Shown here piece after piece: positions 7,745 through 62,403 of a stretch of DNA of 64,000 nucleotides. The notes below the pieces were generated by a model that made no database searches, was not told where the DNA came from, and worked only from the letters and a program-made list of their open reading frames with translations. The DNA comes from a virus. Each line of letters starts with the position of its first letter. Positions within the stretch are counted from its first letter, which is position 1. The position numbers and the translations under genes are program-made. The stretch is taken from positions 19,985 to 83,984 of the IMG/VR virus record IMGVR_UViG_3300002350_000003. One strand, written 5' to 3'.

Positions 7745-9316
7745 TTAAATTTCATGAATCTTATCTACTATAAATGATGTATCTTTATCACTTACTGACC
7801 CACAGAAAATTAAGTTGTTTCCTTCATATAGAATATATTTATACTTTTCACGGGTCTTTGGAAATACTATAACACTGTCTAATATGCACGTATCATCCTC
7901 TATAGTCAAAAATGACATGACCTGACCCTTAGATTCGCCTTTATTGATGGTATAATCTGATAGTCTTTGAATGTTGGCAACTACGCACATATCCTTACCC
8001 TTCTTGCCATTGATTATTTCTTTGCAAGTTGTGTTAGCAGCAGAAGTGTCAGAAGTCTCAACCTTCGTCATTGTAACTGGACATCCTAGAAATTTGACCT
8101 CTTGATCTATAATCCAAGTTGGATCGTCTTCTAGATCATACGGTGGACTTACTAATAGTTGTATTTCATTTTCTATAGCCTGCTTCCTGTCAGCTTTGCT
8201 AGTTCCACCACCATCTTTTTTAGTCGGTGCTAAATCTCTCAAGCAATCCACAAAGGAACTCCACTTTTTATCACTATAATGATTTAATATCCAAGTCTGT
8301 TCTGCTTTGGTGAGAGTTCTATAAATTTCATAATCATAGAGAGCTTTGTTTCTAGTAACACTGCTCTTGAAATTTCTAAAGAATCCTATTGAGGCTAAAG
8401 CCTTGAATGCAGTAGAGCTAATATTTGATCCTATAAAAAGCAAGATTTCAAGCCAAGTAAATTCCTTTACTGGTTTACTCAAAGTCTTTTCAGCTTCATT
8501 TATAGTTTCTATTAACTTATCTCCGGTCGCACCCGTTAGTGACTTTACATCCTTAATACCAAAGTATATCTTACCACGCTTAATATTGAACTTTCTTTCA
8601 AAGTTGGTTAAGCTTGGAGTTCTTGTCTCAATATCAAATAGTTTTGCCTCAGATATCAATTCATAAACTTCTTGATGAGGGTCTTGCTTTTCATTCGCGT
8701 AGAACAGGTAAGACAAAAAGAATTCCTTGGTGTTATGAGCCTTAAAGTATGCACTCCAATAAGAACATACAGCATATGAAACACTGTGGGATTTATTAAA
8801 TGCGTATCTTGATGATTTCTCAATCCATCCGAAAATTTCTTCTGCGTTCTCCTTACTTACAATTCCAACACGCTCTGCCCCCGCTATGAATGATTTTTTG
8901 ACTTCATTCATGAGGTCAGCCTTTTTCTTTCCAATGGCCTTACGAAGAACGTCTGCCTCTTGTAAATTGAAACCAGCGATTTTCTCTGCTATACGCATAG
9001 ACTGCTCTTGATATACAAGAACTCCATATGTTGGCTTTAGAATCTCTTCAAGTGCTGGATGAAGATATGTTACTTCTTCTCTACCGTGCTTACGGTCTAC
9101 ATAATGCTGGGTCATGCTTTTCCCATCAACAATTGCTTTCAAAGTTCCCGGCCTAATGATAGCAATTAGTGCTGATAGTTCTTCAATATTATTTGGTGCA
9201 ACTTTTTTAGACCATGATTTTCCAAGGTTACTTTCTAATTGAAAGATTCCCTTAGTCTTGCCTTCTGCGAACAGTTGCCAAGTTGTTTTATCATTATAGT
9301 CTAAATTATTTAACAT
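7745..9316 (-). CDS. dnaE: DNA polymerase III alpha subunit, C-terminal half (split DnaE)
   Basis: The 523-residue protein continues DnaE exactly where the upstream gene stops. It opens with the GIFQLES element (about residues 23-29), then IIRPGTLK, the thumb/finger segments YGVLVYQEQSMRIAEKIAGF and ADVLRKAIGKKK, and FNKSHSVSYA. A C-terminal OB-fold ends the protein (residues about 430-523). These are the fingers, clamp-binding and OB regions; it lacks the palm aspartates. I chose ATG 9316, which has GGAAA upstream, over 9346. Gene order is N-half, exonuclease, C-half, with overlaps. The two halves must assemble into one polymerase. Confidence 0.9.
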   Translation of the reverse strand: MLNNLDYNDKTTWQLFAEGKTKGIFQLESNLGKSWSKKVAPNNIEELSALIAIIRPGTLKAIVDGKSMTQHYVDRKHGREEVTYLHPALEEILKPTYGVLVYQEQSMRIAEKIAGFNLQEADVLRKAIGKKKADLMNEVKKSFIAGAERVGIVSKENAEEIFGWIEKSSRYAFNKSHSVSYAVCSYWSAYFKAHNTKEFFLSYLFYANEKQDPHQEVYELISEAKLFDIETRTPSLTNFERKFNIKRGKIYFGIKDVKSLTGATGDKLIETINEAEKTLSKPVKEFTWLEILLFIGSNISSTAFKALASIGFFRNFKSSVTRNKALYDYEIYRTLTKAEQTWILNHYSDKKWSSFVDCLRDLAPTKKDGGGTSKADRKQAIENEIQLLVSPPYDLEDDPTWIIDQEVKFLGCPVTMTKVETSDTSAANTTCKEIINGKKGKDMCVVANIQRLSDYTINKGESKGQVMSFLTIEDDTCILDSVIVFPKTREKYKYILYEGNNLIFCGSVSDKDTSFIVDKIHEI

Positions 9317-9986
9317 ACAAATTTCCGTCAGCAAAAGCCTTATCAAAGTTCATGTTTTGGTATACCGCACGATGAGTTTTCATAAGCTTAATAAATATAT
9401 TTGCTTCATCTTTAACGTCCTGTAGAGCATCGTGAGCATTGTCAAAACTTAAGCCCATTCTCTCACGCAAAGAATCCATGCTTATAGATCTAACACTGGG
9501 ATCGCTTTCAGTCCAAGCAAATACACTATCCATGATATCTATCTTATAGACTCTACTGAATAGTTTTTGCTGCTCTCTCTCTTTGTCCCAAGGTCCAAAA
9601 TCTCTACATAGTCTGTTTATTATGTGCATATCGAAGCCAATTATATTAAAACCAACAGGGATAGGATTAAAAAATGGTTCACCCTTCCAGTTGTATTGAT
9701 CAACAAATTTTGTAAATTTATTCCATACGGACTTTAAGGATGGTGCTAATTCTAATTGCTCCCTTGTCTTCTTTGTTATCTTTAGAGCTTCATCTTGTAT
9801 GGGGTCAAATCCAGCCGCTATAGCTTTTTCATCATCAAAAATAGGCTTAATTTCACTGTTGAATTGCCCCTTCATCTGCAATGTTCTTCCATCTAAGGCA
9901 ATAGCGGCGATTTGTGTTGGTTGAGTACGATGTGGATTGCGTGATCCTGTTTCAAAATCAAATATAATATAGTCTCTATTAGCCAT
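9306..9986 (-). CDS. DnaQ-like DEDDh 3'-5' exonuclease (proofreading)
   Basis: The 226-residue protein has the three exonuclease motifs: FDFETGS at residues 9-15 (D10, E12), NIIGFDMHIINRLC near 115 (the second Asp) and HDALQDVKDEANIF near 185 (His and last Asp, DEDDh type). It would proofread for the polymerase, like DnaQ/epsilon. It lies between the two halves of dnaE, overlapping the N-half stop by 8 bases and the C-half start by 11, so the three products are made in order from one message. No clamp-binding motif is obvious. Confidence 0.9.
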   Translation of the reverse strand: MANRDYIIFDFETGSRNPHRTQPTQIAAIALDGRTLQMKGQFNSEIKPIFDDEKAIAAGFDPIQDEALKITKKTREQLELAPSLKSVWNKFTKFVDQYNWKGEPFFNPIPVGFNIIGFDMHIINRLCRDFGPWDKEREQQKLFSRVYKIDIMDSVFAWTESDPSVRSISMDSLRERMGLSFDNAHDALQDVKDEANIFIKLMKTHRAVYQNMNFDKAFADGNLYVK

Positions 9987-11604
9987 TAGATACTCCTGTT
10001 AGTTCTTCAATCTTCATAATTTTATCTAGCAAATTGATTCCTAGAACGTCAAACTTTACGTGGCCCAGTGCCTCTAAGTCTGCCATTTCAAGTCCAGCCA
10101 CCTTTTCTGACGAGCCTTTTTGTTTTACCATTGGGCATACCTTTTGAAGTGGCTCTGCTGAAATTACCACACCGGCAGCGTGTTTGCCTTGAGTTTTAAA
10201 TGTTCCCTCTATCTGAATAGCTTGTTCAAAATATTCAGCATACTCTCCCTCAAGTTTTCCATCTTCTGATATTCTACAGAAATCTCTTAGATCCTCAGAG
10301 TTATTAATCAAAGCCCACTTAATAATAGATCGATCTTCATCATCCATTTCTGCTAATTGATCTGAGATTCTTGCTTCGTCTGGTATACAGTTACTTATAG
10401 CATTCATTTCAGAGAATGAGCAAGCCTCATTAACACGTAAAACTTCCTTAATAGCACTCTTTCCTTGAAGTCTTCCAAACGTTAACATTTGGCTAACTCG
10501 ACTATTCCCATACTTATCTTTTAGATATGCAATAATTTCATCACGCTTAGTACCGGGAACGTCTATATCAATATCTGGTAGAGATATATGATCAGCACTG
10601 TTTCTTCCAGCGTTATAAAATCGTGCAAATAGAAGGTCAAACTCTATTGGGTCAATCTTCGTTATGCCAATTAAATATGAGATTAAACATCCTGCGGCAG
10701 ATCCTCTACCGGGACCAGATAGCCAACCCATATCATTAACGTGCTTTATAATATCACGAACAATAAGAAAATATCCGAATAGATTAGCATCTTTAATAAC
10801 ATCAAACTCTTCCTTGAATCTACTCAAATACTTCTGCTTATCTTCTTCGTTTGATACCTTGTTTTGATCTATTAATATTTTCTTCCAGCCAATACGACAT
10901 AGTTCCTTGAGATAATCTTCTTCTGATGCCCCTTTTGGACATTCAAATTTAGGCAACATTGGCTTGCTGAGAATATCGTAGTCTTCACACTGGTCATAAA
11001 TCTCTTTTAGTTTAGATGAGTCTAAGCCCTTAGATTCGTCTTTGTCTTTAACGTAGAAAGAGTCTTGCATAAAATATACCAATTTATCCATATGCTCTTG
11101 GGGATATTTTGAGTCTACATTTATACCACCGCTGTTGTCTGGCCTAATGCATTTCTTTATTTTTGGTAGCGTAGTCTTCATATCAGAACATAATAATATT
11201 CTGTGAAGTTTGGCATCTTCCCTATTTGTATAATAACTAATAGGCATTGATTCAGTAGGAGCATTATAGACACTAATCAAATTTTTACTGATATTTGTGT
11301 TGTCATATTGCTCTGGTAATTTACCATTTTCATCTAGTGATGAAACCATCTCAATTAACTCGTACCACCCATCTTTATTCTTAGCAAAAAGTGTAGCAAA
11401 ATCAAATGAGCATCCAATGATGGGCTTTATACCCTGTTTTTTGCAGGCTTTATAAAAAGCAACTGCACCAGATAATGTTTTATAATCACAAATACCACAT
11501 GCTGGATATCCATTATACTTACATTTTTTAGCCAATTCTTCTGGCTTTGAATAACCTTTGAGCAAACTGTAATGGGTATAATTCTTCAACGGGAACCAGT
11601 TCAT
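9979..11604 (-). CDS. dnaE: DNA polymerase III alpha subunit, N-terminal half with palm (split DnaE)
   Basis: The 541-residue protein holds a PHP-like domain and the whole palm. Residues 8-70 align with the DnaE PHP start (THYSLLKG, GICDYKTLSGAVAFY), but the metal-binding HxH is reduced, so PHP catalysis is probably lost. SGPGRGSAAG is at 297-306, the catalytic PDIDID at 343-348, and the third palm Asp in VKFDVLG (D519). It ends 22 residues after that Asp, in a linker present in intact DnaE. AAGGAAATAT precedes the ATG. A perfect sigma70 -10 lies upstream. Confidence 0.9.
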   Translation of the reverse strand: MNWFPLKNYTHYSLLKGYSKPEELAKKCKYNGYPACGICDYKTLSGAVAFYKACKKQGIKPIIGCSFDFATLFAKNKDGWYELIEMVSSLDENGKLPEQYDNTNISKNLISVYNAPTESMPISYYTNREDAKLHRILLCSDMKTTLPKIKKCIRPDNSGGINVDSKYPQEHMDKLVYFMQDSFYVKDKDESKGLDSSKLKEIYDQCEDYDILSKPMLPKFECPKGASEEDYLKELCRIGWKKILIDQNKVSNEEDKQKYLSRFKEEFDVIKDANLFGYFLIVRDIIKHVNDMGWLSGPGRGSAAGCLISYLIGITKIDPIEFDLLFARFYNAGRNSADHISLPDIDIDVPGTKRDEIIAYLKDKYGNSRVSQMLTFGRLQGKSAIKEVLRVNEACSFSEMNAISNCIPDEARISDQLAEMDDEDRSIIKWALINNSEDLRDFCRISEDGKLEGEYAEYFEQAIQIEGTFKTQGKHAAGVVISAEPLQKVCPMVKQKGSSEKVAGLEMADLEALGHVKFDVLGINLLDKIMKIEELTGVSNG

Positions 11605-42915: not shown

Positions 42916-43481
42916 TATAATTCCCAAACTATTTGATAGCCATCAAAAATAGGATCTATACCTATGTTCTTCATAAATTGTTTAACGTATTTACCTTTAC
43001 CGTGTCCATTTTCAAAATTGTCATCTACAGCAATTATAGTTCCGGCAGAACATGAAGGCCAAATACATAACAATTCCATAATATGGTGCATAGATGATGG
43101 GTGAGGATTGTTATGATCAAAATCGTAAGAATCTAGATACAAAAGATCTACTGTTTTGTTTATTTCTCTCAACTGTTTATTCATATGAAATAAATAAGAA
43201 ACTGAATCAGAACATATAAGACTTATATTTTTAGTTATACTTTTTGCTAATTCTATATTATATGGATTTATATCTATTGAATAACATTGACCTTTATTGT
43301 CTTGAATAAACTTATCAAATATTACAGTTGACATTCCAGCACCGTAATCATTTACTTGTCTTACACAGCCAGTTTCTATAATCAACGGACTATCTTTTTT
43401 TGATAATTTGTCAATCATCAATTGAAAAGATTCTTTGCGTAATCCATTATTGTTTATTATTTCTTGTAATTCCAGTTCCAT
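42915..43481 (-). CDS. SAM-dependent methyltransferase-like protein
   Basis: The 188-residue protein has IIETGCVRQVNDYGAGMSTV near 34-53, an extended version of the SAM-binding loop, CYSIDINPYNIELAKSI near 66 (acidic strand-2 residue) and VDLLYLDSYDFDHNNPH near 112. It resembles class I methyltransferases that act on small molecules or sugars. The substrate is unknown. It overlaps GMP reductase by one base. Confidence 0.65.
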   Translation of the reverse strand: MELELQEIINNNGLRKESFQLMIDKLSKKDSPLIIETGCVRQVNDYGAGMSTVIFDKFIQDNKGQCYSIDINPYNIELAKSITKNISLICSDSVSYLFHMNKQLREINKTVDLLYLDSYDFDHNNPHPSSMHHIMELLCIWPSCSAGTIIAVDDNFENGHGKGKYVKQFMKNIGIDPIFDGYQIVWEL

Positions 43482-44524
43482 TAAATGCTCCTATCAAAGT
43501 GTACCCTATTAACTTTAACAAATTCTGCACATTTTGGAAGGTCTTTTATACTATCTGCCCCAACATATGCACAAGCACTTCTGATACCACCCAATATATC
43601 ATCAATGACATCTGATACCTCACCCTTATATTCTACCGTCTTAACGCGACCTTCACTGGCCCTATAATTTTTAATTCCACCATATTTTTCCTGTGCTGCA
43701 TGGGAACTCATCCCATAGAATGTTAAAACCCTACTACCGTTTATATGACTCCATTCTCCACTGCATTCCTCTGTACCAGCAATCATGCCTCCAAGCATAA
43801 CAAAGTCTGCACCAGCAGCAAATGCTTTTACAACGTCTGCTGGAGTCCTACAGCCACCATCTGCACAAATTAGACCCAAGTGCTTGTGTTGTGCTTTTAA
43901 TCCATGGGCAGCGTGAGAGCATTCATTAATTGCTGATAATTGAGGATATCCTACTCCAGCTTTTAGTCTTGTTGTACATGCTGATCCCGGCCCAATTCCA
44001 ACCTTAACAATATCAACGCCACCGTGAAGAATTAATTCATGAACCATTTCGGGAGTACATACATTGCCAGCCATTATAACGGGCCTAGTTCCAAACTTCT
44101 CCCTTATTTTTGCACAGTGGTCTACAAACTTATCTGTATATCCATTAGCAACATCAATACAGATATTTGGTATATCTTCTATTCTATCAACTATCTTCCT
44201 AAGTTTGCTGACTTCTTCATCATTAATTCCCATGCTATACCAAAATGTATTTAGATCTTGGAGATTTTCTATATAATCTTCTATATTATAATGTTTGTGT
44301 AGGCATGTGATACAATTTTTCTTTGATAGAGATTCTGCCATTTCGAATGTGCCAGTGGTATCCATATTCGCGGCCATTATAGGAACACCACTCCACTCCA
44401 AAGATGAGTGAAAAAATTTAAACGTTCTTTTTACATCGACCAAGGACCGTGAGGCGGCTCGGGATCTCTGTGGAACGAGTAATACATCATCGAAATCAAG
44501 TTTTGTATCGTTATTAATATTCAT
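43481..44524 (-). CDS. guaC: GMP reductase (GuaC-like, IMPDH family)
   Basis: The 347-residue protein, the length of E. coli GuaC, has FDDVLLVPQRS, PIMAANMDTTGTFEMA, CLHKHY, VGIGPGSACTTRLKAGVGYP (catalytic Cys183), DGGCRTPADVVKAFAAGADF, VMLGGMIAGTEE, FYGMSSHAAQEKYGG and GGIRSACAYVGA. It lacks the CBS domains of IMPDH. It converts GMP to IMP with NADPH. SD GGAG. Unusual in a phage. It sits with dCMP deaminase and rII genes. Confidence 0.9.
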   Translation of the reverse strand: MNINNDTKLDFDDVLLVPQRSRAASRSLVDVKRTFKFFHSSLEWSGVPIMAANMDTTGTFEMAESLSKKNCITCLHKHYNIEDYIENLQDLNTFWYSMGINDEEVSKLRKIVDRIEDIPNICIDVANGYTDKFVDHCAKIREKFGTRPVIMAGNVCTPEMVHELILHGGVDIVKVGIGPGSACTTRLKAGVGYPQLSAINECSHAAHGLKAQHKHLGLICADGGCRTPADVVKAFAAGADFVMLGGMIAGTEECSGEWSHINGSRVLTFYGMSSHAAQEKYGGIKNYRASEGRVKTVEYKGEVSDVIDDILGGIRSACAYVGADSIKDLPKCAEFVKVNRVHFDRSI

Positions 44525-50796: not shown

Positions 50797-50828
50797 GAGG
50801 GCGAACTTTTAGTTCGCTCTCTTTTTTT
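50797..50828 (+). terminator. Rho-independent terminator of plus-strand gene
   Basis: On the plus strand GAGGGCGAAC pairs with GTTCGCTCTC (one mismatch) around TTTTA, followed by seven T. The stop of the convergent protease gene (50809) lies in the loop. Confidence 0.9.
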
Positions 50829-51573
50829 GTATATGTGTCTTGATCCAATCTAAGAAGTTACTAATCCTCGTATGACAACCATCATCATTATACGTTGAGT
50901 CTGGCTTTTTGTCAAGGGTTGTGACACAAGAATTTATACCAGCCAATTTGCCATCTATAAATAAACCGCCGCCGCTATCCCCGCTACCTATTAAGAATTC
51001 AAGCTCTGTTCTATTTAATATAGAAGGACTGCAAATTAAAAGATCATTTTCTATTCTATCTATTTTATTTGATCCGCCCCTTTTTTTCTTGTCTCCATTC
51101 TGTATTCCAGTTATAAAAGTACCAGTTTTACCATAGCCAGCAATAGCGCATATTTTGTCAACTTCATTTGATTCTTCGTATAGCTTTGGATAAAATTCAA
51201 GCTCTATGTCTGATGTTGTATGACATAATGCTATATCTGCAAATCCAAATTGCTTCTCTTCAAAGTTTTCATGGCATATAATTTCATCTATAACTATGAT
51301 CTGTTTTTTCTTTTCGCTGTGTAAGAAAGCAAACTTAGAGTCTTTCACAACATGAGCCGCCGTTAATACCCAACGAGAATCTATAGCAACAGCAGAGGCT
51401 GAGAATAAACCATCATTATTATAAGAACCCATTATCTCTAATACGCAATCAAATTTTTTACCATATTCAATATATTTTTCATCTGGAGTATTGGGGTCTA
51501 TTGTGCCAGCATATATATTAGATATTAAACCAATAAGAAATCCAACTACGAGGTTGTTGATAAGTTTGTTCAT
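50809..51573 (-). CDS. Secreted trypsin-like serine protease (S1 family)
   Basis: The 254-residue protein starts best at ATG 51573, giving a signal peptide (NLVVGFLIGLISNIYAG, cleavage after AYA). The triad is complete: WVLTAAHVV (His), FADIALCHT (Asp) and GSGDSGGGLFIDG (Ser near residue 200), with Cys residues near the C-terminus (INSCVTT, DDGCHTR). It should be exported to the periplasm or beyond. It has no resemblance beyond fold to the two tail-module proteases. It overlaps an HNH gene by 56 bases. Confidence 0.85.
   Translation of the reverse strand: MNKLINNLVVGFLIGLISNIYAGTIDPNTPDEKYIEYGKKFDCVLEIMGSYNNDGLFSASAVAIDSRWVLTAAHVVKDSKFAFLHSEKKKQIIVIDEIICHENFEEKQFGFADIALCHTTSDIELEFYPKLYEESNEVDKICAIAGYGKTGTFITGIQNGDKKKRGGSNKIDRIENDLLICSPSILNRTELEFLIGSGDSGGGLFIDGKLAGINSCVTTLDKKPDSTYNDDGCHTRISNFLDWIKTHIQKKRAN
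50887..50915 (-). promoter_or_regulatory. Perfect sigma70 promoter inside protease gene
   Basis: On the minus strand TTGACA (50910-50915), 17-base spacer, TATAAT (50887-50892). Both hexamers are exact. Transcription would run through the end of the protease gene, antisense to 50388-50756, into 49679-50326 and the genes below. Confidence 0.75.
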
Positions 51574-51880
51574 TATATGGCCTATTCTTGATTTTGAGTG
51601 ATATTTGTTCACAGTCAGTGACTACATTTGTATTCCAGCTTTTGTAGTCCATCAAATGGCCCAATAATAGATGACAATCAGAGCATAATGTGATTAAATT
51701 ATCTGGATTTAATTCATTACTTGGATCTAAATGATATGGTATTATGTGATGAACTTGTAGATCGTTTTTTCTCCTACACGCCTGACAAATTGATTGATGT
51801 TTTAAATGTTCCTTCCTGACGTTAGACCACTTGGGCGATCTAGAATAGTCAGATATTTTATCTCTTAACCAATTAAACAT
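51518..51880 (-). CDS. HNH endonuclease (small, McrA-like)
   Basis: The 120-residue protein has SPKWSNVRKEHLKHQSICQA, then CRRKNDLQVHHIIPYHLDPS and ELNPDNLITLCSDCHLLLG: CxxC ... HH ... N ... CxxC-H, the canonical HNH zinc layout. It resembles phage HNH nucleases near packaging genes or mobile HNH genes. It overlaps the protease gene and has a GTGTATA motif upstream. Confidence 0.88.
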   Translation of the reverse strand: MFNWLRDKISDYSRSPKWSNVRKEHLKHQSICQACRRKNDLQVHHIIPYHLDPSNELNPDNLITLCSDCHLLLGHLMDYKSWNTNVVTDCEQISLKIKNRPYNEQTYQQPRSWISYWFNI

Positions 51881-53663: not shown

Positions 53664-53750
53664 CGGAAGAAGTAGGATTCGAACCCACGGAAGTTTTTAC
53701 GCTTCTTCTGATTAGTAATCAGATGCATTAGTCCACTCTGCCATTCTTCC
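53664..53750 (-). tRNA. tRNA-Ser (anticodon ACU)
   Basis: An 87-base type II tRNA. Acceptor GGAAGAA pairs with TTCTTCC; anticodon stem TCTGA/TCAGA has loop TTACTAA, so the anticodon is ACU for AGU. The variable arm is GAAG...CTTC. The T arm is GTGGG TTCGAAT CCTAC. Discriminator G, no encoded CCA. A34 is unusual: bacterial AGY readers have GCU. Confidence 0.88.
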
Positions 53751-53755
53751 TACTA

Positions 53756-53784
53756 ATTGTATCTCTATTAGTTGCTATTGTCAA
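53756..53784 (-). promoter_or_regulatory. Strong sigma70 promoter for tRNA-Ser
   Basis: On the minus strand TTGACA (53779-53784), 17-base spacer, TACAAT (53756-53761). The predicted start is at the tRNA 5' end, so little processing is needed. The -35 begins just after the tmRNA 3' end. Confidence 0.88.
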
Positions 53785-53785
53785 G

Positions 53786-54133
53786 TGGAGGCGGCGAGAA
53801 TCGAACTCGCGTCCAGAATAATTTCAATATAAACATCTACATCCTTAGTTAGTTGTTCTCGCACAGCTAACAAAGCTAACAGAATTATCTGTGTCAGATT
53901 GAATACAATCATTACCCCCATTTATGTTTGGTGAGGATACCATATCCGATTATCGGAGTCAGCATGATTGGGCAATACGGTTCATGCCACCGCACTCTTG
54001 CCTAACTAGGTCAGGCAGCGAGAGCGAAACGAGTTTCGCCAACTAACATTTTAATCGACTTTTATACTGGCCGGTCGATTAACCAGTGGATGCCATCTAT
54101 ATATCCGTTTACCTGTCGATACCTTTCGCCCCC
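53786..54133 (-). ncRNA. ssrA: Transfer-messenger RNA (tmRNA)
   Basis: A 348-base RNA. The 5' end GGGGGCG pairs with CGCCTCC at the 3' end and gives a G3-U70 wobble, the alanine identity element. The T arm is GCGAG TTCGATT CTCGC. The tag ORF (54040 to 54011) follows TTAGTT and encodes GETRFALAA and a stop (TGA). Ends ALAA like bacterial tags. CCA is not encoded. It rescues stalled ribosomes by trans-translation; rare in phages. Confidence 0.92.
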
Positions 54134-54475
54134 TTATTTTAAGAAGTTTATTAAACCGCTTGGCCCATTATAGCCAATCTTCCTTCCCTTCTCTTTACCG
54201 TTTTCGAAAACCACAAAGGCAGGGATCGTCTTTATATTGTAGCCTTCAACGATGTCTTTGTCAACATCAAAATCTACGTCTACGATGGTATAATTTTTTA
54301 CAATCTCTGATAGTTGTGGGTCATTCTTCATATCATTCTTAGCTATGTGGCAGTATTTACACCAATCGGCGGAAAATATGATTAAAACCTTTTCGTTTGT
54401 ATTATCAAAAGCAAAAACAGAAGCGATAGATATTAAACACGAAATCAAAAGGATAGATACTAGTGTATTTCTCAT
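54134..54475 (-). CDS. Exported thioredoxin-like protein
   Basis: The 113-residue protein has a signal peptide (LVSILLISCLISIASVFA) and a thioredoxin fold: VLIIFSADWCKYCHIAKND (CxxC near 39-42), TIVDVDFDVDKDIVEGYNIK and TIPAFVVFENGKEKG with the cis-Pro. It would act in the periplasm on disulfides. Its end abuts the tmRNA 5' end. A GTGTATA motif lies 42 bases upstream, and a sigma70 promoter is inside it. Confidence 0.85.
   Translation of the reverse strand: MRNTLVSILLISCLISIASVFAFDNTNEKVLIIFSADWCKYCHIAKNDMKNDPQLSEIVKNYTIVDVDFDVDKDIVEGYNIKTIPAFVVFENGKEKGRKIGYNGPSGLINFLK
54236..54264 (-). promoter_or_regulatory. Sigma70-type promoter inside thioredoxin gene, for tmRNA
   Basis: On the minus strand TTGACA (54259-54264), 17-base spacer, TACAAT (54236-54241). 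Predicted start about 95 bases before the tmRNA 5' end. Confidence 0.7.
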
Positions 54476-61678: not shown

Positions 61679-62137
61679 ATGAATCTCAAACATCATTATA
61701 CAAAAGAAGTATTATCAAAAATTTGTGCAGAATCTTATAGTTATAGACAATGTTTAGAAAAAATGAATATAGTTGCAGCAGGGGGTAACTATGCTTGTCT
61801 TAAAAAACATATTGAATTGCATAATATTGACATCTCTCATTTTACACTACAGGGTTGGAATAGAGGTAAAATAATTGGTCCTAAACGTCCAATAGAAGAT
61901 TATCTTTCTAATAAAGCTGGAATACAAAGTTGGAAACTGAAACGTAGGCTCATAAAAGAAAATATTTTGGAACATAAATGCAATAATTGTAAACAAAAAA
62001 CTTGGCTTAATCAACTTATTCCAATTGAGTTACATCATAAAGATGGTAATCATTTGAATAATGAACTGTCAAATTTAGAGTTATTGTGTCCTAATTGTCA
62101 TGCTTTAACTGATAACTATCGTGCTAAAAATAAATAG
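61679..62137 (+). CDS. HNH endonuclease on the plus strand
   Basis: The 152-residue protein starts at ATG 61679 (AAGGAG upstream). It has an N-terminal helical DNA-binding part, then CNNCKQKTWLNQLIPIELHH, KDGNHLNNELSNLELLCPNC: CxxC ... HH ... N ... CxxCH, a full HNH. It is convergent with the intron-containing tRNA and its TAG stop overlaps the tRNA 3' end. A freestanding homing enzyme for that intron or site is plausible. The upstream promoter (61640-61668) faces the other way. Confidence 0.88.
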   Translation: MNLKHHYTKEVLSKICAESYSYRQCLEKMNIVAAGGNYACLKKHIELHNIDISHFTLQGWNRGKIIGPKRPIEDYLSNKAGIQSWKLKRRLIKENILEHKCNNCKQKTWLNQLIPIELHHKDGNHLNNELSNLELLCPNCHALTDNYRAKNK

Positions 62138-62403
62138 GAGTAGTCGGATTCGAACCGACACTTTAAGGATTTTCTTACTACTATAGTTTTCACTACCATT
62201 TCTGTTTGTAGTCTGGACTTTATCTTAACCATAACTTTCGTTTTAGGTTCCTGCCGTTAAGTCTCTACACCTTCATATTTCTATGCTTGGCTCGGTATTA
62301 GCAGTTAAGCCTTCACCGAATTTGACAGGTTCTACATTAAAAGTTTCCTTTTATGCACTCAAATTGTATAAGTCCTTTGCCTCTGCCGTTGGGCTATACT
62401 CCC
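62135..62403 (-). tRNA. tRNA with anticodon UAA, interrupted by a group I intron
   Basis: Exon 1 (62370-62403) and exon 2 (62135-62173) join to a 73-base tRNA. Acceptor GGGAGTA/TACTCCT, anticodon stem AAGGA/TCCTT, loop CTT plus AAAA, anticodon UAA (UUA/UUG, Leu). The variable loop is only 5 bases (AAAGT), unlike normal tRNA-Leu. T arm GTCGG TTCGAAT CCGAC. Discriminator A, no CCA. Junctions: U before the intron, G at its end. Confidence 0.8.
62174..62369 (-). other. Group I intron (196 bases, no ORF) in tRNA
   Basis: Read on the minus strand it contains group I core segments: TTCGGTGAAGG (P), ATACCGAGCCAAGC (Q), GGTGTAGAGACTTAACGG (R) and AAGATAAAGTCC (S). P1 can form from exon GGACTT and intron GAGTGC with U-G at the splice site; the last base is G. 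Layout and site match the intron of cyanobacterial tRNA-Leu(UAA). Confidence 0.85.

Follow-up and report, generated by a model that had tools for sequence, protein, structure and literature searches.

A tmRNA gene with a GETRFALAA tag in a phage genome and its variants among related viral contigs

Transfer-messenger RNA (tmRNA) rescues stalled ribosomes and tags the peptides made on them. Phage-encoded tmRNAs are known but, to our knowledge, have hardly been tested. A survey detected tmRNA genes in 402 of the 18,146 phage genomes of a 2021 database (2.3%; PMC9004378); the word 'rare', used of phage tmRNAs in an earlier note on the DNA analysed here, is therefore right in a relative sense only. 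Phages described as carriers include Methylophilales phage Melnitz (PMC9004378), Chryseobacterium phage MA9V-3 (PMC13120357) and Stenotrophomonas phage Marzo (PMC8928761), and tmRNA and SmpB genes are also known from huge phages (PMC7162821). We analysed a stretch of 64,000 nucleotides (the window), which comes from a virus record of 83,984 bases and is nearly identical to a section of a viral contig of 158,798 bases. This large uncultured phage has an rIIA-like gene, a DNA polymerase III alpha-like gene in two parts, tail genes, a ribonucleotide reductase and a cluster of tRNAs, with no PHROGs family match for most of the structural proteins tried. The object at 53786–54133 (minus strand) is a complete phage-encoded tmRNA, of a kind already known from phages.

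With other phage-encoded tmRNAs it shares the presence of a complete tmRNA gene within a phage genome; the Melnitz gene, however, is two-piece, whereas that of the window is one-piece. Its DNA resembles nothing in 50,697 phage records beyond short weak matches: named phages yielded no close relatives by megablast or blastn at E = 1 × 10−5, and raising E up to 10 added only such matches, mostly to tRNA-like parts. The Rfam tmRNA family RF00023 provides the broader comparison. Shared with it are a match over the full length, G3-U70 in the acceptor stem, the T arm, pseudoknot 1 (PK1), helix 5 and a tag frame ending in ALAA; the differences are that the phage has no detectable smpB, that CCA is not encoded in the window copy and that PK2–PK4 vary among relatives.

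The tmRNA gene and its place in phage DNA

ARAGORN calls a single tmRNA in the window (53785–54133, minus strand, tag GETRFALAA*), and cmscan matches it to model positions 1–374, the full length, of RF00023 (108.8 bits, E = 1.4 × 10−41; gathering score 47). The earlier note, which had named such a covariance-model search as a check, had read a phage-encoded tmRNA with the tag GETRFALAA at 53786–54133. Both calls, the virus record and the relatives with the gene in the same place bear this out; the coordinates were right, and we add the strand, which had not been given. The gene (ssrA) lies within phage DNA and not in a host flank; it is 348 nt long to the discriminator base and begins with the 5′ strand of the acceptor, in the order of a one-piece gene and not in the circularly permuted order of the two-piece form. 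CCA is not encoded, because the discriminator A73 is followed by CUU.

Relatives of the tmRNA were found in 19 viral contigs besides the window's own record. Eleven of these hold a relative of the neighbouring thioredoxin gene, and the tmRNA mostly lies directly after it; the other eight (L019, L022, L023, L025, L028, L191, L194 and L196) came from patterns of tag and context, with L191, L194 and L196 identified by sequence pattern only and L191 read in its 5′ part only. For several relatives Rfam calls a tmRNA and ARAGORN does not. In the window, the thioredoxin-like gene (54134–54475, minus strand) encodes a protein with a thioredoxin fold (Pfam PF00085, E = 7.2 × 10−13), the motif WCKYC and a hydrophobic N-terminus; the protein is probably exported. 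Its TAA directly abuts the 5′ end of the tmRNA.

Given that ssrA is a common integration site of temperate phages (PMC11590407, PMC12656738), the gene could in principle be a leftover of integration, either a fragment of a host ssrA or a copy of an attachment site carried by a temperate phage. However, it is complete at both ends and mostly keeps one place beside the thioredoxin gene; it is also structurally constrained in diverged copies, and the tag GETRFALAA occurs in no cellular genome scanned. No match to a tyrosine integrase (PF00589) was obtained in ten related records (linear contigs, the longest of 167 kb), and we therefore consider an attachment-site leftover very unlikely.

Structure of the RNA across diverged copies

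A structure including pseudoknots was written for the window copy and then counted on 13 diverged copies, so the counted structure derives from one sequence of the set. Across the copies, 93.9% of alignment cells pair, compared with 31–39% when partners are displaced by 1–3 columns. Two-sided changes are seen in 16 pairs (9.4 in shuffles), and the covariation score of 0.197 (0.106 in shuffles) is reached by 0 of 500 shuffles, a count that is not a probability because the shuffles ignore relatedness. Pairs were counted from alignment A3 (with flank), in which L023 is off by one base at the 5′ end, so that three acceptor pairs lose one cell apiece.

All parts of the structure lie on the minus strand. 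Full acceptor pairing with G3-U70 and a tRNA-like T arm, both proposed in the earlier note, were found as described: the acceptor 5′ strand GGGGGCG (54127–54133) pairs fully with CGCCUCC, and all 13 aligned copies retain G3-U70. The T arm GCGAG-UUCGAUU-CUCGC, the acceptor 3′ strand and the discriminator A occupy 53786–53810; in the 13 copies, each of the five T-stem pairs has changed on both sides while 100% of cells remain paired. Pseudoknot formation, on which that note had let its claim depend, is possible for PK1 (54052–54087). This element precedes the tag frame and comprises 13 pairs, ACUGG/CCAGU being interleaved with UAAUCGAC/GUCGAUUA; 100% of cells pair across the 13 copies, and ACUGG/CCAGU becomes AGUGG/CCACU in L011. 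Helix 5, a hairpin in which the tag frame ends, stop codon included (53995–54022), is likewise paired in 100% of cells. After the tag frame, stems compatible with PK2 (53939–53987; GCAUGA/UCAUGC with ACCGUAU/AUAUGGU) and PK4 (53848–53893; CACAG/CUGUG with GUUAG/CUAAC) are present and less constant; these candidates pair in 80–99% of cells (83% for PK4) and are weak in some relatives. The PK3 region between them (53897–53938) gives two hairpins with many compensatory changes (8 of the 12 pairs in helices 12 and 13 are changed on both sides), and a pseudoknot there is only putative.

Two features could be taken as signs of a decayed, non-functional copy: between acceptor and D arm the window copy is one base shorter than some relatives, and the pairing of PK2 and PK4 is weak in some of them. 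Against this, the T stem is fully paired and covaries at all five pairs, PK1 and helix 5 are paired throughout, and every locus read has an open tag frame; we give decay almost no credence. Because most of the pairings are kept, 16 pairs change on both sides and PK1 pairs in every copy, the tmRNA is an RNA under selection and not a remnant.

The 3′ end exists in two types. Five copies (L006, L019, L022, L025 and L028) encode CCA, and their T loop of 8 bases (UUUCGAAN) lacks the usual G53-C61 pair, together with compensatory changes in the T stem; the other copies with the 3′ end read have a 7-base T loop and do not encode CCA. In its remaining parts L006 is close to the window copy, and the 3′ end therefore seems to have been exchanged as a block.

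Tag variants, tag kinship and host

The tag reading frame (54011–54040, minus strand; coding part 94–123 within the gene in ARAGORN) is GGC GAA ACT CGT TTC GCT CTC GCT GCC TGA, and both ARAGORN and our reading agree with the earlier note that it ends in ALAA. The resume codon GGC is directly preceded by UAGUU, a context that is kept in relatives and is of the same kind as the UAGUC before the resume codon of Escherichia coli tmRNA. The LAA end is a ClpXP-binding end. Three versions of the tag were found among the loci read, namely GETRFALAA, GEVSTLALAA (L008–L010, L191, L194 and L196) and GETQLALAA (L011); all have an open frame that ends in ALAA, and the middle varies. GEVSTLALAA sits on more than one tmRNA backbone, with different 5′ and PK3–PK4 sequences, which suggests that the tag cassette has been exchanged by recombination among relatives.

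The exact tag had no match in 84,980 cellular species and none in 396 Bacteroidota genomes scanned separately. A less strict pattern was derived from the DNA that codes for the tag; among the matches listed (at least 120), 117 record titles name a Bacteroidota taxon, and the remaining 3 (Candidatus Minthosoma and Candidatus Colicola) are presumably Bacteroidales too. The tags among these listed matches are GETNYALAA, GETRYALAA, GETSYALAA and a few others. GETRFALAA is one residue away from common Bacteroidota tags, with Phe for the Tyr of GETRYALAA, and its coding stretch is almost identical to the commonest GETRYALAA form, from which it differs at 3 of 36 positions (TTAATTGGCGAAACTCGTTACGCTCTCGCTGCTTGA versus TTAGTTGGCGAAACTCGTTTCGCTCTCGCTGCCTGA). 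Over the whole molecule, identity to the best-scoring Bacteroidota tmRNAs is about 65–68%, slightly above that to E. coli, and a transfer of the whole gene is therefore not shown.

Although the tag suggests a Bacteroidota host, we consider such a host doubtful, because the phage uses Shine–Dalgarno sites and Bacteroidota rarely do. Shine–Dalgarno-like sites precede 33 of the 59 window ORFs (8.4 in shuffles); the controls gave 0 of 30 for a Cellulophaga phage and 20 of 41 (versus 8.7) for a Pelagibacter phage. TTGACA promoters, of which the window has 13 (4.8 in simple shuffles), also contradict a Bacteroidota host. The ribonucleotide reductase is nearest to those of pelagiphages and cyanophages (about 55% identity), and comparisons of rIIA, DNA polymerase and structural proteins indicated no clear host. 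For Melnitz likewise, tmRNA kinship does not match the host (PMC9004378). From a Bacteroidota-like tag in the company of gene signals unlike those of the Bacteroidota phage control, we infer that the tag may have crossed phyla. The earlier note proposed that products could be labelled with a tag other than that of the host, which may be the case. More tentative, and on balance rather doubtful, is the proposal that the tmRNA or at least its tag cassette came from a Bacteroidota bacterium and is now used in a host of another phylum, with the swapping of cassettes reflecting selection on the foreign tag; if so, infected cells would tag rescued peptides with a sequence new to the adaptors of the host. 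Three findings were less expected: a tag unmatched in the cellular species scanned yet Bacteroidota-like, signals unlike those of a Bacteroidota phage, and another tag on more than one backbone.

Proposed function and neighbouring features

We interpret the locus as a working phage tmRNA gene that acts with host factors to free ribosomes during infection, with a probability of roughly 0.87. What the analysis establishes for this reading is that the gene is present, that its structure is conserved and that it contains a tag frame; in addition, no SmpB gene was detected in ten related records (linear contigs), SmpB being found in ten control genomes. The tmRNA therefore most likely works through the SmpB of the host.

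The RNA would be transcribed during infection, probably either from a promoter-like site within the thioredoxin gene or by transcription continuing from upstream. This site, TTGACA-17-TACAAT at 54236–54264 (minus strand), was found by a consensus scan and precedes the tmRNA by about 100 nt. Five relatives (L007–L011) have the same two hexamers with differing spacers; the hexamers also encode conserved residues, and its role as a promoter is therefore only plausible. Host RNase P would trim the 5′ end, the CCA-adding enzyme of the host would complete the 3′ end, and host AlaRS would charge the molecule with alanine by way of G3-U70. Together with host SmpB and EF-Tu, the tmRNA would then enter ribosomes that have stalled on broken mRNAs, whether of the phage or of the host; translation would switch to the tmRNA frame at GGC, A-GETRFALAA would be added to the stalled peptide and the ribosome would be freed. 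The LAA end would direct the tagged product to ClpXP-type proteases, and the benefit to the phage would presumably lie in the supply of ribosomes during infection.

A different role, as a regulator or decoy, would have the tmRNA compete for host SmpB, or the foreign tag protect or redirect products instead of sending them along the usual protease route. The varying middle of the tag beside a constant ALAA, and the absence of the tag from the cellular genomes scanned, are consistent with such a role. A decoy, however, would need neither the resume codon nor the open frame nor the LAA end, all of which are kept, and we consider this role unlikely. Within this lineage, otherwise related molecules differ naturally in their tag (three versions), in their T loop (two types) and in whether CCA is encoded; such variants would permit tests of how a phage profits from having a tmRNA and of whether the tag sequence itself is under selection.

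A second promoter-like TTGACA-17-TACAAT (consensus scan; 53756–53784, minus strand) lies directly after the tmRNA and before a tRNA-Ser (53664–53750, minus strand; ARAGORN and Rfam), which neighbours the tmRNA in several relatives and has the anticodon ACT, with an unusual A34. The larger related contig has two tRNA-Ser (ACT) genes (L189:3177–3263 and L189:18286–18372), and they are kept in several relatives. The tRNA is possibly a variant whose anticodon loop evades tRNA-cutting defences (compare PMC10264068), or it may have merely diverged.

The window also contains a group I intron (RF00028, 58.7 bits; 62135–62403, minus strand) within a tRNA gene. Joined on paper, the exons form a 73-base tRNA with the anticodon TAA, called as tRNA-Leu by ARAGORN; the long variable arm usual in tRNA-Leu is missing. 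The intron lies between U34 and A35, which we take to be the place of the intron in cyanobacterial tRNA-Leu(UAA); in L191 and L023, intron-less tRNAs with the same anticodon are called. Elsewhere on the minus strand, the DNA polymerase III alpha-like gene (7745–11604) is divided into two ORFs, with a 226-aa ORF between them (9306–9986) that is perhaps a mobile element or homing endonuclease, and Pfam identifies an IMP dehydrogenase/GMP reductase gene (43481–44524) and a trypsin-like protease gene (50809–51612).
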